Shown piece after piece: positions 5,033-36,019 of a stretch of 36,019 nt of DNA. Origin of the DNA: Limisphaerales bacterium (GTDB taxonomy: Bacteria; Verrucomicrobiota; Verrucomicrobiia; Limisphaerales; SXTU01); NCBI GenBank assembly GCA_009773355.1, contig WRPG01000053.1, positions 1 to 36,019 of the forward strand, written 5' to 3'. Position numbers and translations under genes: made by a program. The number at the start of each line of letters is the position of its first letter. Within the stretch, counting starts at the first letter, position 1. The notes below the pieces were generated by a model. It made no database searches. It saw only the letters and a program-made list of their open reading frames with translations, and was not told the DNA's origin.

Positions 5033-8000
5033 TCACTGGCTCGCAGTATTCGTCTCCGCGCGGAGGATTCGATTCAAAAATTCTCCCGTGTGGCTGCCCG
5101 GTGTGGCGGCGACGGTCTCCGGCGTGCCCTCCGCCACGATGCGTCCGCCGCCCGTGCCGCCCTCGGGGCCGAGGTCGAGAATCCAGTCGGCGCACTTGAT
5201 GACATCGAGGTTGTGCTCGATGACGAGGAGCGTGTTCCCCGGCGCGCGGAGTTTGAAGAAGACTTCCAGCAGCTTGGCCACGTCGTGGAAGTGCAGGCCG
5301 GTCGTCGGCTCGTCGAGGATGTAAAGCGTCTTGCCGGTCTGGCGGCGCGAAAGTTCGGACGCCAGCTTCACGCGCTGCGCCTCGCCGCCGGAGAGCGTCG
5401 TGGCCTGCTGACCGAGCCGCAGGTAGCCGAGGCCCACTTCCGCGAGCGTCAGGCACGGCTCGTAAATCTTCGGCACCGCGCGGAAGAAGTTCACCGCCTC
5501 GTCCACCGTGAGGTCGAGCACGTCGGCGATGTTCATGCCCTTGAAGTTGATTTCCAGCGTCTCGCGATTGTAGCGGCGGCCCGCGCAATTTTCGCAGGTC
5601 ACATAAACCGGCGGGAGGAAGTGCATCTCGATCTTGAGCAGCCCGTCGCCCTGGCATTTCTCGCAGCGCCCACCCTTCACGTTGAAGCTGAAGCGCCCCG
5701 CCTCGTAGCCGCGAATCTTCGCCGCCGGGAGCTGCGCGAAGAGGTCGCGGATGGCGTTGAAGATGCCCGTGTAAGTCGCCGGGTTGCTGCGCGGCGTGCG
5801 GCCGATGGGCGTCTGGTCAATGACGACAACTTTGTCGAGCAACTCCGTGCCGCGAATCTCGCGGTGCGCGCCGGGCCGCTCCTTCGAGCCGAACCACAGG
5901 CGGAAGAGATGCCGCTGGAGGATGTCGCAAATCAACGTGCTCTTGCCCGACCCGCTCACGCCGGTCACGCACGTGAGCGTGCCGAGCGGAATGCGCGCCG
6001 TGACGTTCTGCAAGTTGTTCTCCCGCGCGCCGGTGATTTCCAGCCAGCCGGCCTTGCCCACGGGAGAAATGCGTTTGCGTGGCACGGGAATGCTCAAGTC
6101 ACCGCTCAAGTAACGGCCCGTGAGCGAACGCGGGTTCGCCATGACTTCAGCAACGGTGCCTTGCGCGACGACCTCGCCGCCGTGTGTGCCCGCGCCGGGA
6201 CCGAGGTCAATGACGTGGTCGGCGCGGCGGATGGTGTCCTCGTCGTGCTCGACCACGAGGACGGAATTGCCGAGGTCTCGGAGTCCTTCGAGAGTTTTGA
6301 GCAGGCGCTCGTTGTCGCGCTGGTGCAGCCCGATGCTCGGCTCGTCGAGGATGTAGATGACGCCGACCAAGCCCGCGCCAATCTGCGTCGCGAGCCGGAT
6401 GCGCTGCGCCTCGCCGCCCGAGAGCGTGCCGGACTCGCGGTCGAGCGTGAGATAGCCGAGACCGACGTTCTTGAGGAAGCCCAGCCGCGCGCGAATCTCC
6501 TTCACCAGCTCGCCGGCGATTTTCTGCTGAAAGTCCGTGAGCGGCAGCGAGGCGAAGAAGAGGTCGGCGGTGTCCACGGAGAGGGCGCAGACATCGGCGA
6601 TGCTGAGGCCCGGAAGAATTGGCGATTGGCGATTGGCGATTGGTGATTGGGGGAGTTGCGCTTGCCCGCCCAAGCGCACGGCGAGGATTTCTGGTCGCAG
6701 CCGCTTCCCCCCGCACGCATCACAAAACTCCGGGGCCATGAACGCTTTCAGGCGGTTCTTGGTGAACTCGCTTTCGCTCTCGGCGTAGAGGCGTTCGAGG
6801 TTCTTCAGCACGCCCTCGAAGGGCCGCGAGATTTTGCTGACCTTGCCAGCGCGCATGAAGTGGAAGCTCACCTCGGTCTCGCCGGAGCCGTGCAGCACCA
6901 CCCGACGAAAGTCCTCCGGCAGCGATTTCCACGGCGTCTCCAGGCTCTGCTCGAAGTGCGCTGCGAGGCCGCGCAGCAGCGCCTTGTAATAGACAATCAT
7001 CCGCTTGCCACCGCGCCGCCACGGCAGGACCGCGCCGGACTCCAGCGACTTCTCCGCGTCCGGCACGATGAGCGCGGGGTCGAAGACCATCTTCTGTCCG
7101 AGGCCGTGGCAGGTCGGGCACGCACCGAACGGCGAGTTGAAGGAGAAGTGTTTTGGTTCCGGCGGGTCGAACGTCTCGCCCGTGGCCGGGGAATACATCC
7201 GGTTGGAGAGCAGCGTCTCGGTCCACGGCGCGGTGGTAGGGCCGCGCTGCTGCGCGGCCTCGGCTTCGGCGGTCGCCGTGCCCGCTCGTTTCGCTGCGCT
7301 CGCTGACGCGGGGGGAACCTGGCCGACCGGCAGGTCGGCCCTACCGGCGTCGGGCGCTTGCGAGAGCAACAGCAACTTCCCATTCCCCCACTTCAACGCC
7401 GTCTCCACCGAGTCGCCCAGGCGGACGCGGATCTTGTCATCCACCACCAACCGGTCAACGACCACCTCGATGGTGTGCGCCTGCTTCGGCTCCAGCTTGA
7501 TGCGGACGTTGGCGGCGAGTTCGACCAGGTCGCCATCCACCCGCGCGCGCACAAAGCCGTCGCGGGCCAGCCGCTCAATCACATCGCGGAACTCGCCCTT
7601 TTGCTTTTCCACCACCGGCGCGAGCAGCATCACGCGCGTGCGCGGCGGTAACTTGAGGATGGTGTCCACGATGTCGCTGGTGGTCTGGCGCGAGATGGGC
7701 TGGCCGCTGACGGGACAGTGCGGCTGGCCGACGTGAGCGAAGAGCAGGCGCAGGTAGTCGTAAATCTCCGTCGTCGTCGCGATGATGGAGCGGGGGTTCG
7801 AGCCGGAGCTGCGCTGCTCGATGGCGATGGTCGGGGAAAGTCCTTCGAGATAGTCCACGTCCGGCTTCTGGAGCTGGTCGAGGAACTGCCGCGCGTAGGC
7901 GGAAAGGCTTTCCACATACTTGCGCTGGCCCTCCGCGTAAATGGTGTCGAACGCGAGCGAGGACTTGCCCGAGCCGGACAGGCCGGTGAGCACCACCAGC

Positions 8001-11485: not shown

Positions 11486-12484
11486 TCACCGATCCCCCCG
11501 CAGGTCGAACGCATCGCGCAAACCATCCCCGAAGAAGTTCAGCGCCAGCAACGTGCTCACCAGCACCGTGCAGGGGAAGACCAGCAGCCACCAGTAGATG
11601 CGGATGGGGTTGATCTGCGCCGCGCCGTCCGCGATGAGCGAACCGAGGCTGGCCTGCGGCGGCTGGATGCCGAGGCCGAGGTAGCTCAGGAACGACTCGT
11701 AGAGGATGATGGCCGGCACCAGCAGCATCAGATACACGATGATGATGCCGGTGATGTTCGGCAGGATGTGGCGGAAGAGGATTTGCGTGTGCGTCGCGCC
11801 CAGCGCTCGGCTGGCATCCACGAACTGCCGCGTGCGCAGCGACAGCACCTGCCCGCGCACAATACGCGCCATCGTGAGCCACGACACCGCGCCGAGGCCG
11901 ACGAACAGGCCGACGAACTTCGCCGTGTCGCGCATCGTGACCGTGAGCTTCCCGGCGGATTGCAGCTTGTCCAAAGCCCCGTGCAGCGTGGTGATGAGCA
12001 CGATGACGAAGATGATGCTCGGCAGCGAATAGAGCACGTCCACCACGCGCATCAGCCAACTGTCCCAGCGCCCACCCAAGTATCCCGCCGCAGCACCCCA
12101 CAACACACCGATGACGAGGCTCACGCACGCGCCCACCGCCCCCACCAGCAGCGACACCCGTGCGCCGTAAATCACCCGGCTGAAGATGTCCCGCCCGTGG
12201 ATGTCCGTGCCGAACCAATGCTTCGCGCTCGGTGGTGCGAACAGTTCGGCGGAATGCTCATTCGGGGTGTGCAACCCGGTGGAGAGAGAGCCCGGCATCG
12301 CCTTCGCGACGCCCGGCGACGACAGCACCGGCCAGAGCAGAATCACGCCGAGCAGCGCCACGAGCAGCACGCCGCACGCGGAAGCGAACTTGTTCTTCCG
12401 AAACCGCCGCCACGCCCGCTGATTCGGACTCAACGACTCACTGACCGCTGATTGCTGACTGCTAACCTCTGCCTCCTCACTCAT
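11486..12484 (-). CDS. oppC: oligopeptide ABC transporter permease OppC
   Basis: A 332-residue inner-membrane permease of the DppC/OppC family. After a cytoplasmic N-terminus comes RAWRRFRKNKFASACGVLLVALLGVILLW (first helix), the family motif HWFGTDIHGRDIFSRVIYGARVSL, and the EAA loop VDASRALGATHTQILFRHILPN that docks the ATPase. The start overlaps the end of oppB by 8 bp, so the two are translationally coupled. Residues 8-15 (SSQQSAVS) are encoded by heptamer repeats and extend the N-terminus beyond the family core. No ATPase genes (oppD/oppF) follow; a REPIN-like element closes the operon. Confidence 0.93.
   Translation of the reverse strand: MSEEAEVSSQQSAVSESLSPNQRAWRRFRKNKFASACGVLLVALLGVILLWPVLSSPGVAKAMPGSLSTGLHTPNEHSAELFAPPSAKHWFGTDIHGRDIFSRVIYGARVSLLVGAVGACVSLVIGVLWGAAAGYLGGRWDSWLMRVVDVLYSLPSIIFVIVLITTLHGALDKLQSAGKLTVTMRDTAKFVGLFVGLGAVSWLTMARIVRGQVLSLRTRQFVDASRALGATHTQILFRHILPNITGIIIVYLMLLVPAIILYESFLSYLGLGIQPPQASLGSLIADGAAQINPIRIYWWLLVFPCTVLVSTLLALNFFGDGLRDAFDLRGDR
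12428..12483. repeat. heptamer array in the oppC N-terminal coding region
   Basis: On the plus strand the 7-bp register runs ACTCAAC, GACTCAC, TGACCGC, TGATTGC, TGACTGC, TAACCTC, TGCCTCC, TCACTCA. The TGACCGC/TGATTGC/TGACTGC core (12442-12462) is clear; the flanks are more diverged. It reaches the oppC start codon and the oppB stop codon. Confidence 0.6.
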
Positions 12485-13394
12485 ACTTCACCCTCCGGTC
12501 GAGATAGCTGTAGGCCACGTCCACGAGCAGGTTCAGCACGAGCAGCAGGGTCGCGTAGAGCAGCACGAGGCCGATGACCATCGGGTAGTCGCGGTTCAAG
12601 GAGCTGTTCACCATGAACACGCCGACGCCGGGGATTTGAAACAGGTTCTCCACGATGAACGACCCCGTGAGCAAATCCGCCAGCAGCGGCCCCGAGTAGG
12701 ACACCACCGGCAGGACGGCGATGCGCAGCGCGTGTTTGAGCAGGACGGTCGTGTCGTCGAGGCCCTTCGCGCGAGCGGTGGTGATGTAGTGCTCGTGTAG
12801 CGTTGTGAGCATTCCCTCGCGCATGAGCCGGGCGACGCGACCGGAGAAGTAGAGACCCAGCGTCAGCGTCGGCAGGATGACGTGCGCGGGCGAGGTCCAC
12901 AGTGCCACCGGCAGCAGCCGCCACTGAATCGCCAGTCCCATCACGAGCAACGGCCCGACCACCAGCGCCGGCACGCACACCGCGAGAATCGCGAAGAAAC
13001 TGCCCGTGTAATCCCCCCACTGCCCCCGCCGCGCCGCCGACCAGAAGCCCAGCGGAATTCCCACGCCCAGCGACAGCGTGAACGCCATCCCACCCAGCGC
13101 CACCGACACCGGCAAGCCCTGCGCGATGATGTCCGTGACCGTGTGGTTGCGATACTTGAAGGACGGCCCGAAGTCGCCTTGCAGCACGCCGCCAATGTAG
13201 CGGAGGTATTGTCGCCACCAAGGTTCGTCGAGGTGATACTTGGCCTCGATGGCGCGTTTGATTTCCGCCGTGGCCGGCGCGCGCTCCTTGTCGAACGGCC
13301 CGCCGGGTGCGAGCTTCAGCAGCGCAAACGCCAGCACGCTGATGAGCAGCAGCAGCGGGAGCAGGAAGGCGGCGCGTTTGGCGAAGTAAAGCAC
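12477..13394 (-). CDS. oppB: oligopeptide ABC transporter permease OppB
   Basis: A 305-residue inner-membrane permease of the DppB/OppB family, partner of OppC. The N-terminal helix FAKRAAFLLPLLLLISVLAFALLKLAPGGPFD with the PGGPFD motif is diagnostic. The protein then has the periplasmic stretch HLDEPWWRQYLRYIGGVLQGDFGPS, further helices, and the EAA loop YITTARAKGLDDTTVLLKHALRIAVLPV. The C-terminal helices include ENLFQIPGVGVFMVNSSLNRDYPM, also typical. It is preceded on the minus strand by the imm53 gene and followed with overlap by oppC. The substrate class is oligopeptide or dipeptide by homology only. Confidence 0.94.
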   Translation of the reverse strand: MLYFAKRAAFLLPLLLLISVLAFALLKLAPGGPFDKERAPATAEIKRAIEAKYHLDEPWWRQYLRYIGGVLQGDFGPSFKYRNHTVTDIIAQGLPVSVALGGMAFTLSLGVGIPLGFWSAARRGQWGDYTGSFFAILAVCVPALVVGPLLVMGLAIQWRLLPVALWTSPAHVILPTLTLGLYFSGRVARLMREGMLTTLHEHYITTARAKGLDDTTVLLKHALRIAVLPVVSYSGPLLADLLTGSFIVENLFQIPGVGVFMVNSSLNRDYPMVIGLVLLYATLLLVLNLLVDVAYSYLDRRVKYE

Positions 13395-13404
13395 GGCGGG
13401 GAAA

Positions 13405-13432
13405 GTGATCAGTAATTAGTGCTTAGTCAGGC
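13405..13432. repeat. heptamer array, oppB side of imm53
   Basis: Four units in strict 7-bp register on the plus strand: GTGATCA, GTAATTA, GTGCTTA, GTCAGGC. The stop codon of imm53 (minus strand, 13429-13427) falls inside the last unit. Facing it at 13731-13758 is the inverted partner array. Confidence 0.8.
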
Positions 13433-13720
13433 GGCCGCCCACGAGAGAAAGGTGCGAACGATTTCTTCCAGCATGAACTCGCTGCCATGCCCTTCAAACT
13501 TGCCATCCACGACTTCACAGTGGAGCCAATTCCGCTTGTCCTCCAACCGCTTGATCAAGGGAAACGACTTTCCGGCCAACGCGGTCCCCGCAACGTCGAT
13601 GCGAACGCTCCACCCTGGATTGTCGAGTGATTCAATCTTGATGCCATGTTGATGCTCCCACTCGCCATCGCATTGCGAGCGATACCACTTCTGCAACTCT
13701 TGGAAAGGACTCTGGTTCAT
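13427..13720 (-). CDS. Imm53-family immunity protein (orphan)
   Basis: A 97-residue protein matching the Imm53 family of polymorphic-toxin immunity proteins: LQKWYRSQCDGEWEHQHG followed by IKIESLDNPGWSVRIDVAGT, where the WEH and LDNPGW motifs are the family hallmarks. Such proteins normally neutralise a cognate toxin encoded next door, but no toxin gene or toxin C-terminal domain is visible. It sits in the same direction between oppA and oppB, with heptamer arrays on both sides, like an inserted single-gene cassette. It may protect against a neighbour's toxin. The family assignment is from memory of the conserved motifs; the function is inferred from the family. Confidence 0.8.
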   Translation of the reverse strand: MNQSPFQELQKWYRSQCDGEWEHQHGIKIESLDNPGWSVRIDVAGTALAGKSFPLIKRLEDKRNWLHCEVVDGKFEGHGSEFMLEEIVRTFLSWAAA

Positions 13721-13730
13721 GCGACGCGAA

Positions 13731-13758
13731 ACTAATGACTAACCACTAATCACTTCTT
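13731..13758. repeat. heptamer array, oppA side of imm53
   Basis: Four units in 7-bp register: ACTAATG, ACTAACC, ACTAATC, ACTTCTT. They are the inverted counterparts of the GTNATTA-type units at 13405-13432. The oppA stop codon (13752-13750) lies inside the third and fourth units. Confidence 0.8.
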
Positions 13759-15477
13759 CTTCCGGATGGTGTGGATCGGATGCTCATCCAGCAGGTTCGC
13801 GTGGATGCCCTCAATCTTCTTTGGGTCAAAAAAATTCACGCCGGCGTAGAACCACAGCGGGACGATGGGCAGGTCGTCGCGGATGAGGAGCGTCTCGGCC
13901 TGGCGCAGGAGCGCGGCGCGTTTCTTCGGGTCGGTCTGGAGGTTCGCGGTGCGGATGAGGTTGTCGTAGATCGAGTTTGACCAGCCGGTGCGGTTGTTGC
14001 CGTTGCCGGTCATGAACATGTCGAGAAACGTGTTCGGGTCGTTGTAGTCGCCAATCCAACTGCTGCGCGAGAGGTCGTAGTCCAGCGCGCTCTGGGCGCT
14101 GTAATAAACTTTCGGCTCCATCGCGCGCAGCTCCATCTTCACACCGAGTTCCTTGCGCCAGATTTCCTGCAACTCCACGCCCACCTGCTCGTCGAGCTTG
14201 TCGGTCTTGAACAGGTAATGAAACGGCGGGAAGTCCTTGCCGCCGGGGAAGCCGGCCTCGGCGAGAAGCTTGCGGGCCTGCTCGGGGTCGTAGCCCCAGC
14301 CGTCGGGCGGCTCATAAACACCCATGCCCTTCGGCGTGAAGTGCGAGGTCGGCGTCTCGCCGCTGCGGGTGATTTTGTTGACGAGCTTCTGCCGGTCCAC
14401 GGCGAGGGCGAAGGCCCGGCGCACGCGCACGTCGGTGAAGGGCTTGCGCTTCACGTTGAAGCGGAAGAAGTAGGTGCCGAGGTAGTCAAACTTGTGGCAG
14501 TCGGGGCGCTTGCCCAGCACGTCCATGAGTTCGTTCGGCACGAGGTTCTTGTCCCAAATCACGTCCGCCGCGCCGGTCTCGTAGAGGTTCAGCGCGGTGG
14601 TCGAGGACTTGATGGGGAGGAAGTCCACCAGCTCGCTGCGGATGTTCGCGGCGTCCCAGTGGCGGGCGTTGCGGCGGAGACGGACACGGTCGTTGAGCCG
14701 CCAGAACTCCAGCGTGTATGCGCCGTTGCTCGGCACCGGCTGCGTGAGGAGCCAGCGGTCGCCGTGCTGCTCAATCCAGAAGCGCGGCACGACCGCGAGC
14801 GTCGGAAACGCGCAGAGGTCGAGGAAGAAGGCCGTCGGGCCGATGAGTTCCACGCGCAGCGTGTGCGGGTCGAGCGCGCACACAGCGATGTCTTCGGGCT
14901 TGAAAGGCTTGCCGGTCGCGGCGTTGGTCTTGCCAGTGGAGTAATCCTCCGCGCCCTTGATGAAGAAGAGCTGGCTGGCGTATTCCGCGCCGGTTATGGG
15001 GTCGAGCGCGCGACGCCACGACCAGACCACGTCTTCCGCAGTGATGGGCTGACCGGTGGACCACACAGCGTTGGTGCGAAGGTGGAAGGTGTAAACCACG
15101 CCGTTGGGCGACATGTCCCAACGATGGGCGAGCGCTGGTTCGGCGGTGGCGTTCTTGCCTTCCAGTCGCGTCAGCCCCTCGAAGAGCGCCTTCACGATGC
15201 GCATTTCGGTCTGCGTGGAGATGATGGCGGGATCGAGGGAGTCGGGTTCCGCGCCGTTGACCAGGACGAGGTCGGCCGGCGGCTCGGAGCGGGTGCAGCC
15301 GACGAGAACAACAACGAGAACAACGCCGACGAGTCGTGCTGCGTGTTGCGGGTTGCGTGTCAGCCCAAGCGCGCGCGTCGCGAAACCATGCAGCACGCAA
15401 CACGCAACACGCAACACAGCCCCGAAAAGGCGAAACGCCCTCGGAGCTTTACCAAGGGCGTGTTTCGCGAACGGCAT
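13750..15477 (-). CDS. oppA: oligopeptide-binding lipoprotein OppA
   Basis: A 575-residue extracytoplasmic solute-binding protein (SBP_bac_5 family) that delivers peptides to OppBC. The lipobox is LVGC with Cys61; mature sequence starts CTRSEPPADLVLVNGAEPDSLDPA. Family motifs follow: FEGLTRLEGKNATAEPALAHRWDMSPNG, TAEDVVWSWRRALDP, and RRAFALAVDRQKLVNK. The signal sequence is unusually long: residues 21-48 come from a heptamer inverted repeat, giving two hydrophobic stretches before the lipobox. The ATG at 15477 is 10 bp after the secG stop; a GTG at residue 21 is an alternative. In the same transcript as tpiA-secG upstream and imm53-oppB-oppC downstream. Confidence 0.92.
   Translation of the reverse strand: MPFAKHALGKAPRAFRLFGAVLRVACCVLHGFATRALGLTRNPQHAARLVGVVLVVVLVGCTRSEPPADLVLVNGAEPDSLDPAIISTQTEMRIVKALFEGLTRLEGKNATAEPALAHRWDMSPNGVVYTFHLRTNAVWSTGQPITAEDVVWSWRRALDPITGAEYASQLFFIKGAEDYSTGKTNAATGKPFKPEDIAVCALDPHTLRVELIGPTAFFLDLCAFPTLAVVPRFWIEQHGDRWLLTQPVPSNGAYTLEFWRLNDRVRLRRNARHWDAANIRSELVDFLPIKSSTTALNLYETGAADVIWDKNLVPNELMDVLGKRPDCHKFDYLGTYFFRFNVKRKPFTDVRVRRAFALAVDRQKLVNKITRSGETPTSHFTPKGMGVYEPPDGWGYDPEQARKLLAEAGFPGGKDFPPFHYLFKTDKLDEQVGVELQEIWRKELGVKMELRAMEPKVYYSAQSALDYDLSRSSWIGDYNDPNTFLDMFMTGNGNNRTGWSNSIYDNLIRTANLQTDPKKRAALLRQAETLLIRDDLPIVPLWFYAGVNFFDPKKIEGIHANLLDEHPIHTIRKKK
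15336..15417. repeat. inverted heptamer array in the oppA signal-peptide region
   Basis: Left arm 15336-15360 reads GTGCTGC, GTGTTGC, GGGTTGC, GTGT. Right arm 15388-15417 contains ATGCAGC and three perfect ACGCAAC units (15395-15415). The arms are complementary around about 27 bp that itself contains a CG-rich palindromic tract (15368-15382). The whole block is in frame within oppA. Confidence 0.8.
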
Positions 15478-32860: not shown

Positions 32861-34153
32861 ATGGCCCAATTTTCCTACAAGGCCCGCAAGCGCTCCGGCG
32901 AGACCGTCAGCGGCATTCTCGATGTCAACGACCGCGGCGCGGCGCTGGCGCAGATTGATCGCATGGGGTTGTTTCCAGTGGCCGTCGAGGCGGCCAAGGG
33001 CGGCGCGGCGGCGACCCCGGGCAAGGCGGAGATTTCCATCTCGTTCACCAAGTTTCTGCCGCCCGCGCTGCGCGAGGTGGCGCTGCGTCCGCGCCAGCCG
33101 AACATGCAGGAGCTGGCGACGTTCACGCAGCAGCTCGCCAACTTGATCAAGGCCGGCATGCCGCTCACCGCAGCGCTGAACAGCATGACCTACCTCGGCT
33201 CGAAGGGCATTCCCGCCGAGGTGGCCAAGCAGCTCCGGCAGGACGTGACCGAGGGCCGCAGCCTGTCCGACGCGATGGCGAAGCAGCCGGTCATCTTCAC
33301 GGACATGTATGTCAACATGGTCCGCGCGGGCGAGCAGAGCGGCTCGTTGCAGGAGGTGCTGCGGCGGCTGGCGGAGCACTACGAGCGCTTCGCCGAGGTG
33401 CGCTCGAAGGTGCAGTCCGCGCTGATCTACCCGATGATCGTCGTGCTGGTGGGCTTCGCGATGGTGGTGGTGTTCATCGTGTTCATCCTGCCGACGTTTC
33501 TCTCGCTGTTCCAAGGCATCAAGGCCGAGCTGCCGGCCTCGACGCGGCTGCTCATCGGCATCAGCAACTTCATCCGCAACCCGGCCTATCTGCTGACCAT
33601 GGCGCTGGTGGCAGTCGCGGGTTCCATTGTCTTCCTCCGCTTCCGCGCCAGCGACGTGGGCCGCCGGATGCTGGACCGCTGGAAGCTCAAGGCCCCGCTC
33701 TTCGGCAAGGTGATGCGGCTCTATCTCTTCGGGCAGTTCGCGCGCACGCTGGGCACGCTCATGCAGAACGGCGTCTCGGTCCTGACCGCGTTGAAGATCA
33801 CCGAGCAGGTGCTGCCCAACACCATTCTCAAGGAGGCCATCGCGAAGACCCGCGAGGCCGTGACCGACGGTAAAACCCTCGCGCAGCCGCTGGCGCGCAG
33901 CCAGGTCTTCCCGCAGCTCATGATTGACCTGATCCGCATCGGCGAGGAGACCGGCGATGTGCCCGGCGCGCTCCGCAGCGTGGCGGAGAGCTACGAGAGC
34001 GACCTGAACACCACGCTGCGCGTCCTGATGAACCTGATCGAGCCAGTGATGATCATCGGCATCGCCATCGTGGTGGTGTTCCTGCTCCTGAGCGTGCTCC
34101 AGGCGATGTTCATGATCACGTCGAGCATCGGAGAAAGCTTTGGTGGAAGATGA
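32861..34153 (+). CDS. gspF: type II secretion system inner-membrane protein GspF
   Basis: A 430-residue GspF/PilC family platform protein that links the secretion ATPase to pseudopilus assembly. It has the family N-terminal signature FSYKARKRSGETVSGILDVNDRGAALAQIDRMGLFPV, two copies of the GspF domain (first around FTQQLANLIKAGMPLTAALNSM, second around FGQFARTLGTLMQNGVSVLTAL), and three membrane helices (MIVVLVGFAMVVVFIVFILPTF, LLTMALVAVAGSIVFLRF, IEPVMIIGIAIVVVFLLLSVLQAMFM). The end overlaps gspH by 4 bp. PilC of type IV pili is very similar, but the downstream GspH/I/J-like genes favour a type II secretion system; GspE and GspG are not in the window. Confidence 0.93.
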   Translation: MAQFSYKARKRSGETVSGILDVNDRGAALAQIDRMGLFPVAVEAAKGGAAATPGKAEISISFTKFLPPALREVALRPRQPNMQELATFTQQLANLIKAGMPLTAALNSMTYLGSKGIPAEVAKQLRQDVTEGRSLSDAMAKQPVIFTDMYVNMVRAGEQSGSLQEVLRRLAEHYERFAEVRSKVQSALIYPMIVVLVGFAMVVVFIVFILPTFLSLFQGIKAELPASTRLLIGISNFIRNPAYLLTMALVAVAGSIVFLRFRASDVGRRMLDRWKLKAPLFGKVMRLYLFGQFARTLGTLMQNGVSVLTALKITEQVLPNTILKEAIAKTREAVTDGKTLAQPLARSQVFPQLMIDLIRIGEETGDVPGALRSVAESYESDLNTTLRVLMNLIEPVMIIGIAIVVVFLLLSVLQAMFMITSSIGESFGGR

Positions 34154-34752
34154 ATGTGGCAAGTGACAGGTGGCAGGTGACAAGTGGCGCGGCAAGCGTG
34201 TCCACCCGCCACCATTCACTAATCACTAATTACTTCTCTCCCTCCGCCGCCTTCACCCTCATCGAGATCATGATCGTCGTGGGCATCATCGCGATCCTCA
34301 TGACCATCGCCATCCCCGCCTTCGTCTCGGCGCAGAACAAGACGCCCATGCGCAATGCGCTGCAAGGCGTGATGGAAGCCTGCGCCACCGCCCGCGCCCA
34401 GGCCATCCTGCGCGGCTCGCTCGTTGAGCTGCGCATTCGCCCGCAGGACCACACCTTCGATGTGACACCCACCGGCCAGGGCGGCAGTTCATCCGGCGGT
34501 GAAGCGCGTCCTGAGCCGAAAGCCGGCGAGGGCCACGGCGTCTTCACCCTGAAGCTGCCGGAGGAGGTCGGCATCGAGGAACTTGCGGTGAACTTCCAAC
34601 TGCTCAAGGAAGCCGAGGCCGTCGCCGTGCGCTTCCACGCCAACGGCACGAGCGACGAGTTCACCGTGGTGCTGCGCTCGCTGGCTGGCGAGTTGCGGAA
34701 GATCACCCTCGATCCCGTCACCGGCAAGGCGGACTACGACGTGCTGCGATGA
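34150..34752 (+). CDS. gspH: minor pseudopilin, GspH-like
   Basis: A 200-residue prepilin. The N-methylation segment AAFTLIEIMIVVGIIAILMTIAIPAFVSAQ marks a type IV pilin-like protein, with cleavage expected before Phe35 and the Glu at +5 present. After the helix, RNALQGVMEACATARAQAILRGSLVELRIRPQ is the GspH/FimT-like pattern. The 34-residue leader is much longer than the usual 6-15 and is encoded by heptamer repeats. The residue before the cut is Ala, not Gly. Overlaps gspF (ATGA) and gspI. Confidence 0.85.
   Translation: MNVASDRWQVTSGAASVSTRHHSLITNYFSPSAAFTLIEIMIVVGIIAILMTIAIPAFVSAQNKTPMRNALQGVMEACATARAQAILRGSLVELRIRPQDHTFDVTPTGQGGSSSGGEARPEPKAGEGHGVFTLKLPEEVGIEELAVNFQLLKEAEAVAVRFHANGTSDEFTVVLRSLAGELRKITLDPVTGKADYDVLR
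34156..34235. repeat. heptamer arrays in the gspH leader
   Basis: First block in 7-bp register: GTGGCAA, GTGACAG, GTGGCAG, GTGACAA, GTGGCGC (34156-34190). Second block: TTCACTA, ATCACTA, ATTACTT (34215-34235). The first resembles the reverse complement of the arrays in the gspI and gspJ leaders; the second uses the same unit family as the array at 13731-13758 beside imm53. Confidence 0.75.
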
Positions 34753-35273
34753 ACTTCAGGGTGACAAGTGACACGAGGCAAGTGCCAAGGCTCACGCCGA
34801 GTTCCGGCGCGCGTTTCGTGTCACCTGTCACCTGCCACCTGTCACCCGCCGCCGCCTTCACCCTGCTGGAGGTGATGATCGCCATCGGCATCTTCTTCAT
34901 GTGCGTGTTCTTCATCCTGGAGCTGGTGTCCACGAATCTGCGGCACGTCCAGCGGCTTCAGAAGCCAAGCGTGGACATTGGCAGCCTGGCGTCCGAGCTG
35001 TCGCTCACGAACAAGCTGGAGGAGGGCGGCGACTCCGGGGACTTCGGCAGCCTTTACCCCAGCGTCTCGTGGTCGCGCGAGATCGTGATGGTGGGCACCA
35101 ACGGCTTGTTCCAGGTGGATTTCACCGTGCTGGACGGCTCGGGCGGCGGGCGGTTTCCCGTGGAGAGCAAACTGTCCATTTTCCTCTACCGGCCAGAATC
35201 AATGATGGGCGTGGGCGGCGGAAGCCGGGGGGGGGCGACCGGCCCGCCCGTGCGCAGCTACCCCAGCCGATGA
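34749..35273 (+). CDS. gspI: minor pseudopilin, GspI-like
   Basis: A 174-residue prepilin with segment AAAFTLLEVMIAIGIFFMCVFFILELVSTNL; the TLLEVMIA start is typical of GspI. Cleavage would precede Phe37, leaving a 36-residue leader made largely of heptamer repeats. The mature part has a short beta domain (WSREIVMVGTNGLFQVDFTVLD) and a Gly-rich C-terminus. It overlaps gspH by 4 bp and gspJ by 4 bp. Assignment to GspI rests on the N-terminal helix and gene order F-H-I-J. Confidence 0.75.
   Translation: MNFRVTSDTRQVPRLTPSSGARFVSPVTCHLSPAAAFTLLEVMIAIGIFFMCVFFILELVSTNLRHVQRLQKPSVDIGSLASELSLTNKLEEGGDSGDFGSLYPSVSWSREIVMVGTNGLFQVDFTVLDGSGGGRFPVESKLSIFLYRPESMMGVGGGSRGGATGPPVRSYPSR
34761..34848. repeat. 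inverted heptamer array in the gspI leader
   Basis: Left arm: GTGACAA, GTGACAC, GAGGCAA, GTGCCAA, GGCTCAC (34761-34795). Right arm: TCACCTG, TCACCTG, CCACCTG, TCACCCG (34821-34848). The arms are mutually complementary across a 25-bp spacer and end 8 bp before the codon of the mature Phe. Confidence 0.8.
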
Positions 35274-36019
35274 ATGCGACGGATGACAAAAGGCAGTTGA
35301 CCGGTGACGCGCGAGCGAGCGCCGCTGGTCACTTGTCACCTGTCACTTGTCACCGGTCACCTCGTTCTGCCTTCACCCTCATCGAGGTCATCATCGCCAT
35401 CGGCATCCTCGGGCTGGTGATGACGGCGATCTACGCGAGTTGGACCGCCGTGCTGCGCGCGTCGAAGACCGGCAACGCGGCTGCGGACGAGGTGCAGCGC
35501 ATGCGCATCGCGCGGCAGGCGCTGGAGCAGTCGCTTGCCTCCGCCGTGCTCTACGCCGCCAACCCGCGCCATTACTCCTTCATCGCGGACACCACGGACG
35601 AAAAGTTCGCGCTGCTCAGTTTCGTCGCGCACCTGCCGCAGGACTTTCCCGGCAGCGGCATGTTTCCCAACCAGCCGCTGCGCCGCGTGACCTTCGCGGT
35701 GGAACCCGGCACGAACAACGGCCCGCCGGCGCTGGTGTTGCGACAAGCCTCGCTGCTCACGCCGACCAACTCCCCGGTCGAGGAATCCTACACGCTCACC
35801 CTCTCGCGCCACCTCGCCGTCTTCGGCGTGGAGTTCTGGAGCACGAACCTGAACGACTGGGACGTGGAATGGCTCCCGACCAACCAGGTGCCGAAGATGC
35901 TGCGCGTGACGCTCGGCTTCGGCGGCGACAGCCGGGCCGGGTCAACGCCGGCAATCCTCGTCAGCAGCGTGATTTCGCCCGGCGGGCAGGGCGTGGGGCG
36001 CGACGTGCAGGGCGTCGCG
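35270..36019 (+). CDS. gspJ: minor pseudopilin, GspJ-like (partial, runs off window)
   Basis: An open frame of 250 codons without a stop, cut by the window end. The prepilin segment SAFTLIEVIIAIGILGLVMTAIYASWTAVLRAS has Phe35 as expected first mature residue and Glu at +5. The C-terminal body (AVFGVEFWSTNLNDWDVEWLPTNQVPKMLRVTLGF) matches the GspJ pattern, where a late strand precedes an RVTL-type strand. ATG at 35270 overlaps the gspI stop (ATGA); the 34-residue leader MNATDDKRQLTGDAR... is built from heptamers. GspJ caps the pseudopilus with GspI and GspK; a gspK gene would be expected next. Confidence 0.8.
   Translation, partial: MNATDDKRQLTGDARASAAGHLSPVTCHRSPRSAFTLIEVIIAIGILGLVMTAIYASWTAVLRASKTGNAAADEVQRMRIARQALEQSLASAVLYAANPRHYSFIADTTDEKFALLSFVAHLPQDFPGSGMFPNQPLRRVTFAVEPGTNNGPPALVLRQASLLTPTNSPVEESYTLTLSRHLAVFGVEFWSTNLNDWDVEWLPTNQVPKMLRVTLGFGGDSRAGSTPAILVSSVISPGGQGVGRDVQGVA
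35281..35363. repeat. inverted heptamer array in the gspJ leader
   Basis: Left arm: GGATGAC, AAAAGGC, AGTTGAC, CGGTGAC (35281-35308). Right arm: TCACTTG, TCACCTG, TCACTTG, TCACCGG, TCACCTC (35329-35363). The arms face each other across 20 bp, and the right arm ends 8 bp before the mature Phe codon, the same distance as in gspI. Confidence 0.8.

Follow-up and report, generated by a model that had tools for sequence, protein, structure and literature searches.

Immunity genes that stand apart from a toxin of their own have as a rule been reported from dedicated arrays or islands, among them the recombinase-associated acquired interbacterial defence arrays (PMC12247911) and polyimmunity loci (PMC3482391). 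The Imm53 family (PF15580) is marked by the motifs W, WE, PGW and W (Zhang et al., PMC3482391), and the toxin families tied to it are Ntox24 and Ntox10 (PMC3482391). Heptamer repeats of the TAACTGA type are known from Beggiatoaceae, Cyanobacteria and Bacteroidetes, where they are direct repeats of one word, with one inverted case (PMC4679880). REP, BIME and GTAG-tagged palindromic repeats are palindromic elements found at gene junctions, and REPs have been reported as insertion hot spots (PMC3733652, PMC1525189).

The window analysed here, a stretch of 36,019 nucleotides, is contig C140 of a 6.16-Mb genome that is 95% complete (G000). This genome is one of 11 in its genus (G000 to G010), and its relatives are uncultured verrucomicrobial MAGs. 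On the minus strand of the window the genes run in the order pgk, tpiA, secG, oppA, imm53, oppB, oppC (Table 1). An earlier note on this DNA, made from the letters and an ORF list, had proposed that imm53 separates oppA from oppB, and this was confirmed, as an Imm53 ORF lies between genes for a family-5 solute-binding protein and an OppB-type permease. The PF15580 profile matches the ORF over profile positions 2-91 of 92 (E = 8.7e-32) with 109.2 bits, far above the cut-off of 25, and the product keeps all motifs of the family, as W12, W21-E22, P35-G36-W37 and W65. The structure of the protein, predicted with confidence (pLDDT 89.6), has the alpha+beta fold described for Imm53, and a search for relatives in the PDB, by fold or by sequence, gave none that was convincing. 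The copy number in Table 1 comes from a search of G000 itself. No Shine-Dalgarno-like run was seen in the imm53 leader. We also considered a phage origin of the gene and rejected it, as viral contigs were without any Imm53 relative.

Table 1. Features at and near the oppA-oppB junction (positions in the window).
Feature	Position	Strand	Remarks and basis
oppC (BPD_transp_1 with OppC_N)	11486..12484	-	Pfam
oppB (BPD_transp_1, OppB-type permease)	12477..13394	-	Pfam
oppB-side arm, TNACTRA heptamer array	13405..13432	-	Holds imm53 stop; upstream of oppB start; sequence and heptamer/inverted-match tests
imm53	13427..13720	-	97 aa; Imm53 family PF15580; single copy; orthologues at the same site in G001 and G003
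Diverged imm53 tract, codons 35-97	13427..13618	-	Synonymous saturation, G000 against G001/G003; sliding divergence, split dS
imm53 leader TTCGCGTCGC	13721..13730	-	Identical in G000 and G003; sequence comparison
oppA-side arm, TNACTRA heptamer array	13731..13758	-	Holds oppA stop; upstream of imm53; sequence and heptamer/inverted-match tests
oppA (SBP_bac_5, family-5 solute-binding protein)	13750..15477	-	Pfam
CAACACG-class heptamer-array hairpin, ordinary short-loop form	15335..15417	-	secG-oppA junction; inverted-repeat scan and junction comparison

Like the orphan immunity genes of defence arrays and polyimmunity loci (PMC12247911, PMC3482391), imm53 has no toxin of its own beside it, is laterally exchanged and diverges between its carriers. 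Unlike them it is a single gene, placed in a core transport operon and in a repeat hairpin, and neither an immunity array nor a recombinase was seen with it.

The earlier note had further described imm53 as bounded by inverted arrays of heptamers, and these proved to be real but degenerate. The two arms consist of TNACTRA heptamers in opposite orientation. The whole window holds five tandem pairs of NACTRA heptamers, and four of these lie in the two arms; a shuffled window is expected to hold 0.065. Compared as inverted copies, the arms agree at 18 of their 26 overlapping positions, with a best ungapped segment score of 15, a level that 2 out of 5000 random pairs with equal spacing also reached. 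As heptamer arrays the arms are far beyond chance, and as an inverted pair they are modestly but significantly alike. The note had also placed the stop codons of both oppA and imm53 within heptamers, and the sequence agrees (TGA as the complement of 13750-13752 and of 13427-13429, respectively). This placement is nevertheless to be expected rather than special, since such heptamers hold stops in several frames and since several other hairpins of G000 likewise have the end of the preceding gene at their left arm. A long-range RNA hairpin across imm53 was rejected, because the region as a whole does not fold better than shuffles (z = -0.61).

We searched for OppA and OppB in all 11 genomes of the genus. 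In three separate MAGs, G000, G001 and G003, the arrangement is oppA-arm-imm53-arm-oppB, so the gene is variable at this site rather than fixed there in all relatives. The empty site that the earlier note had suggested looking for exists in G002, whose junction consists of oppA, a hairpin of the TNACTRA class with a short loop, and oppB. In G004 and G005 the junction carries a hairpin of a different class, built of CACAGAG units, and in G006 to G010 it is rearranged or unresolved. Among these last genomes, G007 and G008 have oppA followed by a heptamer hairpin and then by an opposite-strand gene that resembles rdgB (by eye, not by HMM). Ahead of the hairpin that stands before oppB, G009 and G010 retain a 3'-terminal remnant of oppA (loci L071 and L069), and the match of this remnant to the G008 end was reached by 0 of 1000 shuffles; the earlier order there was thus probably oppA-hairpin-oppB, with the operon since split. 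In the deepest relative, G006, oppA and oppB lie apart and there is no such hairpin. Two of the empty junctions form much stronger folds than shuffles do (z = -3.9 in G002 and -7.3 in G004), and the folds of the G008 and G009 junctions are weak (z = -1.8 and -1.1).

The same heptamer class of hairpin is therefore found without imm53 at the end of oppA in G002, G007 and G008 and before oppB in G009 and G010. Because the hairpins stay in relatives that have no imm53, the arms belong to the junction and not to the gene. Judged by these sequence comparisons, the oppA-oppB junction is subject to change, and the arms form part of it with or without imm53. We looked for remnants of imm53 in the short loops of the relatives and found none, which fits a gain of the gene in the loop and is also compatible with ancestral presence followed by loss.

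Hairpins of this kind are a common feature of the genus. In 436 kb of G000, arrays with a period of 7 occur at 9.2 per 100 kb and arrays of other periods at 0.8, and the period-7 figure in samples from relatives in the order and the phylum is about 1.2-1.3. Among 16 TNACTRA array sites sampled in G000, five have one arm only and the other 11 consist of inverted arms that pair around loops of 20-92 nt; imm53 alone among the sampled sites forms a loop of gene size. When genes around these sites were called with a simple coding-potential caller, 12 of the 16 sites lay outside called genes, and at several of these the left arm coincides with the end of the upstream gene; at the remaining four a called gene runs across the site. 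The exact TNACTRA-hairpin pattern is present in 8 of the 11 genus genomes, in 2 of 47 other genomes of the order and in 1 of 386 other genomes of the phylum, and a control search with the reversed pattern gave almost no matches. In G007 there are about 21 separate hairpins of the exact class. The loops are different at every site and mutually unrelated. In all eight genomes compared the two arms share one word (mainly TTAGT or mainly TCAGT); the co-variation of the arms is modest (510 of 40320 permutations), by a test that is weak and ignores the tree. In one case, at C52:5580-5864, repeat hairpins of another word are nested, and their loop measures 200 nt.

These arrays resemble the TAACTGA repeats (PMC4679880) in that they are tandem and intergenic, mostly at junctions, are built of 7-nt words that fit TNACTRA, often stand just before a start codon and contain stop codons. 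However, the TAACTGA repeats form single direct arrays of one word, whereas the arrays described here are for the most part paired and inverted, so that they form hairpins, use several words and occur in a phylum absent from that paper. With REP and BIME elements (PMC3733652, PMC1525189) they share a palindromic form and a position at gene junctions, but they lack the GTAG tag and the one conserved, repeated palindrome of those elements, their arms being heptamer arrays and their loops differing everywhere. In the literature that we searched we found no description of an abundant hairpin system with 7-nt arm words for Verrucomicrobiota.

The gene itself has a history distinct from that of its neighbours. 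Imm53 is rare in the phylum, with 5 carriers among 386 other genomes in an even sample, and 1 among 47 other genomes of the order. Within the genus, dS of imm53 is 2.1 between G000 and G001 and 1.2 between G000 and G003, against 0.19 between G001 and G003, while oppA and oppB have values of 0.27-0.36 between G000 and G001/G003. The synonymous saturation is confined to codons 35-97, being absent from codons 1-34 and from the flanks: between G000 and G003, third positions differ at 31 of 63 codons in the former stretch and at 4 of 34 in the latter (Fisher p = 3e-4). The excess divergence ends near the oppB-side arm, and its left limit lies inside the gene, not at an arm. Such mosaic divergence indicates allele exchange with a diverged homologue and, as read from the synonymous sites, part of the G000 imm53 comes from such a homologue, or the reverse. 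The gene is intact, and its dN/dS is well under 1, so that the protein has been maintained by purifying selection. The carriers do not form one clade on the concatenated tree, where G000 is separated from G001 and G003, and single-gene trees are weak and conflicting; a gain in the loop and an ancestral gene that was lost, leaving the hairpin, therefore both fit these data.

Some further observations concern Imm53 genes and loci elsewhere. In G161 (L082, around 6500-7938) short direct repeats adjoin the Imm53 gene, which lies between apparent full and partial copies of a CesT-like gene's 3' end. Two distant Imm53 genes (L084 and L037) have a folE2-like gene nearby, no more than a few kb away, which may be a coincidence. 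A public record titled Akkermansia muciniphila (L060) carries the orthologous locus of this lake genus.

With regard to a toxin partner, the immediate neighbours of imm53 are oppA, oppB, oppC, secG and a GNAT gene. None of these is a toxin, in agreement with the earlier note. That note had also suggested a search for Imm53-linked toxins, and neither Ntox24 nor Ntox10 was found in any genome of the genus, in a search that had no positive control and therefore does not prove absence. A tail linked to Rhs that adjoins the Imm53 gene of G063 was likewise sought in the genus and not found, again with no positive control. In G063 the Imm53 gene directly follows an Rhs C-terminal region, which is the order expected of a toxin and its immunity gene, and this supports an immunity role for the Imm53 family in the phylum. 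Matches to Rhs repeats number 13 in G000 and 11 each in G001 and G003, against 0-1 in the other eight genomes of the genus, so that Rhs is strongest in exactly the three genomes that carry imm53, a co-occurrence worth following up. The large Rhs proteins of the three genomes (L095, L097 and L099) have C-terminal regions without a Pfam family, each followed by a small gene of its own, and we therefore rejected them as obvious partners of imm53. Imm53 genes are expected beside a cognate toxin, and imm53 is not so placed; with no toxin adjacent and with variable presence among relatives, it has the properties of an orphan immunity gene.

Our preferred reading, to which we give a probability of about 0.55, is that imm53 is a laterally exchanged orphan immunity gene which occupies the loop of an intercistronic hairpin native to the site and is read with the opp transcript. 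Many junctions of the genus carry a hairpin whose arms are arrays of 7-nt words and whose short loop is unrelated to other loops; in many cases the upstream gene stops at the left arm and the downstream gene starts shortly beyond the right one. The oppA-oppB junction has one such hairpin of its own, and imm53 takes the place of its loop in G000, G001 and G003, so that the arms serve as the leader and the trailer of the gene. The likeliest route of entry is recombination at the palindromic junction, and alleles are exchanged between related bacteria. The gene is expected to be carried on the opp message and, from its family membership, the protein probably neutralises, by binding it, a toxin delivered by neighbours. 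REP hairpins set the expression ratio in other binding-protein operons and, by analogy, the hairpin probably sets the ratio of oppA to oppB expression. With its documented empty site in a relative and its allele exchange, imm53 offers a concrete and testable case of a single defence gene entering a core operon, in the place of a hairpin loop.

The explanation of the earlier note differed in one respect. It took imm53 to be cargo delivered between repeats, and while its picture of an orphan immunity-family gene that is variable at this junction and has a horizontal history holds, delivery between repeats is not supported. If imm53 were a mobile single-gene cassette, the two arms would be the ends of a unit that carries it from site to site. 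That the arm, the leader and imm53 are common to G000 and G003 down to the leader sequence would suit such a unit, as would the gene's own history, the drop in divergence near the oppB-side arm and the one other nested case with its 200-nt loop. However, relatives without imm53 keep the arms at this junction, the same arms enclose other, short and unrelated loops at many junctions, and the exchanged tract begins inside the gene instead of at an arm. Within the genus there is one Imm53 gene per genome, always at the oppA-oppB site, whereas the ends of a cassette with terminal inverted repeats move with their cargo to other sites, and no target-site duplication or recombinase was noticed on reading the stretch. 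We thus regard a cassette as improbable. It is about as improbable that the arms have nothing to do with imm53. Arrays are present at many junctions and also flank the genes of a pilin-type cluster (34150-35362), so a small gene between two others would be bound to have one on each side; but an ordinary small gene should then be flanked on both sides by complete hairpins, such as that at 34760-34846, and imm53 has one arm per side. Taken together, moreover, its two arms correspond to the one hairpin of G002, and within each genome they have a word in common.

An older origin in the same place seems to us unlikely, though less so than either of these. On this account imm53 already stood at this junction in the ancestor of most of the genus, repeated losses followed, and the hairpins of the relatives are what remained after deletion between the arms. 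The separation of the carriers on the concatenated tree would follow from it, the leader and first 34 codons diverge between G000 and G003 as the flanks do, and the flanks of the hairpin look orthologous across the genus. Against this, at least three losses are needed, no short loop holds a trace of imm53, the deepest relative has neither adjacent oppA and oppB nor such a hairpin, and short-loop hairpins are normal elsewhere with no sign of a lost gene.

A wider proposal, that heptamer-armed hairpins are self-renewing junction elements across the genus, in which arm words change in concert and loops are free, so that the loops would serve as landing places where genes such as imm53 are taken up or swapped without disturbing their neighbours, is speculative, and we think it unlikely. 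At the secG-oppA junction the array words vary by species (CAACACG, GCCTTTT and TTGCCTG), which suggests that words are replaced while the array stays. The hairpin of this junction in the window overlaps the start of the listed oppA ORF, so the true start of oppA is probably further downstream; relatives of OppA align to this ORF only from about residue 41-55. In the pilin-type cluster, heptamer arrays precede each gene, with GTGACAA words and one TNACTAA array at 34216, and listed ORF starts lie inside arrays. GTAG-like repeats occur separately in G000: contig C27 (loci L039-L053) contains many near-identical inverted pairs, GTAGCTCGACATTCCAATGTCGAG...CTCGACATTGGAATGTCGAGCTAC, that resemble GTAG-tagged REP dimers, for example at 35906, 38728, 61206, 94023, 96093, 188105, 209619 and 210493.
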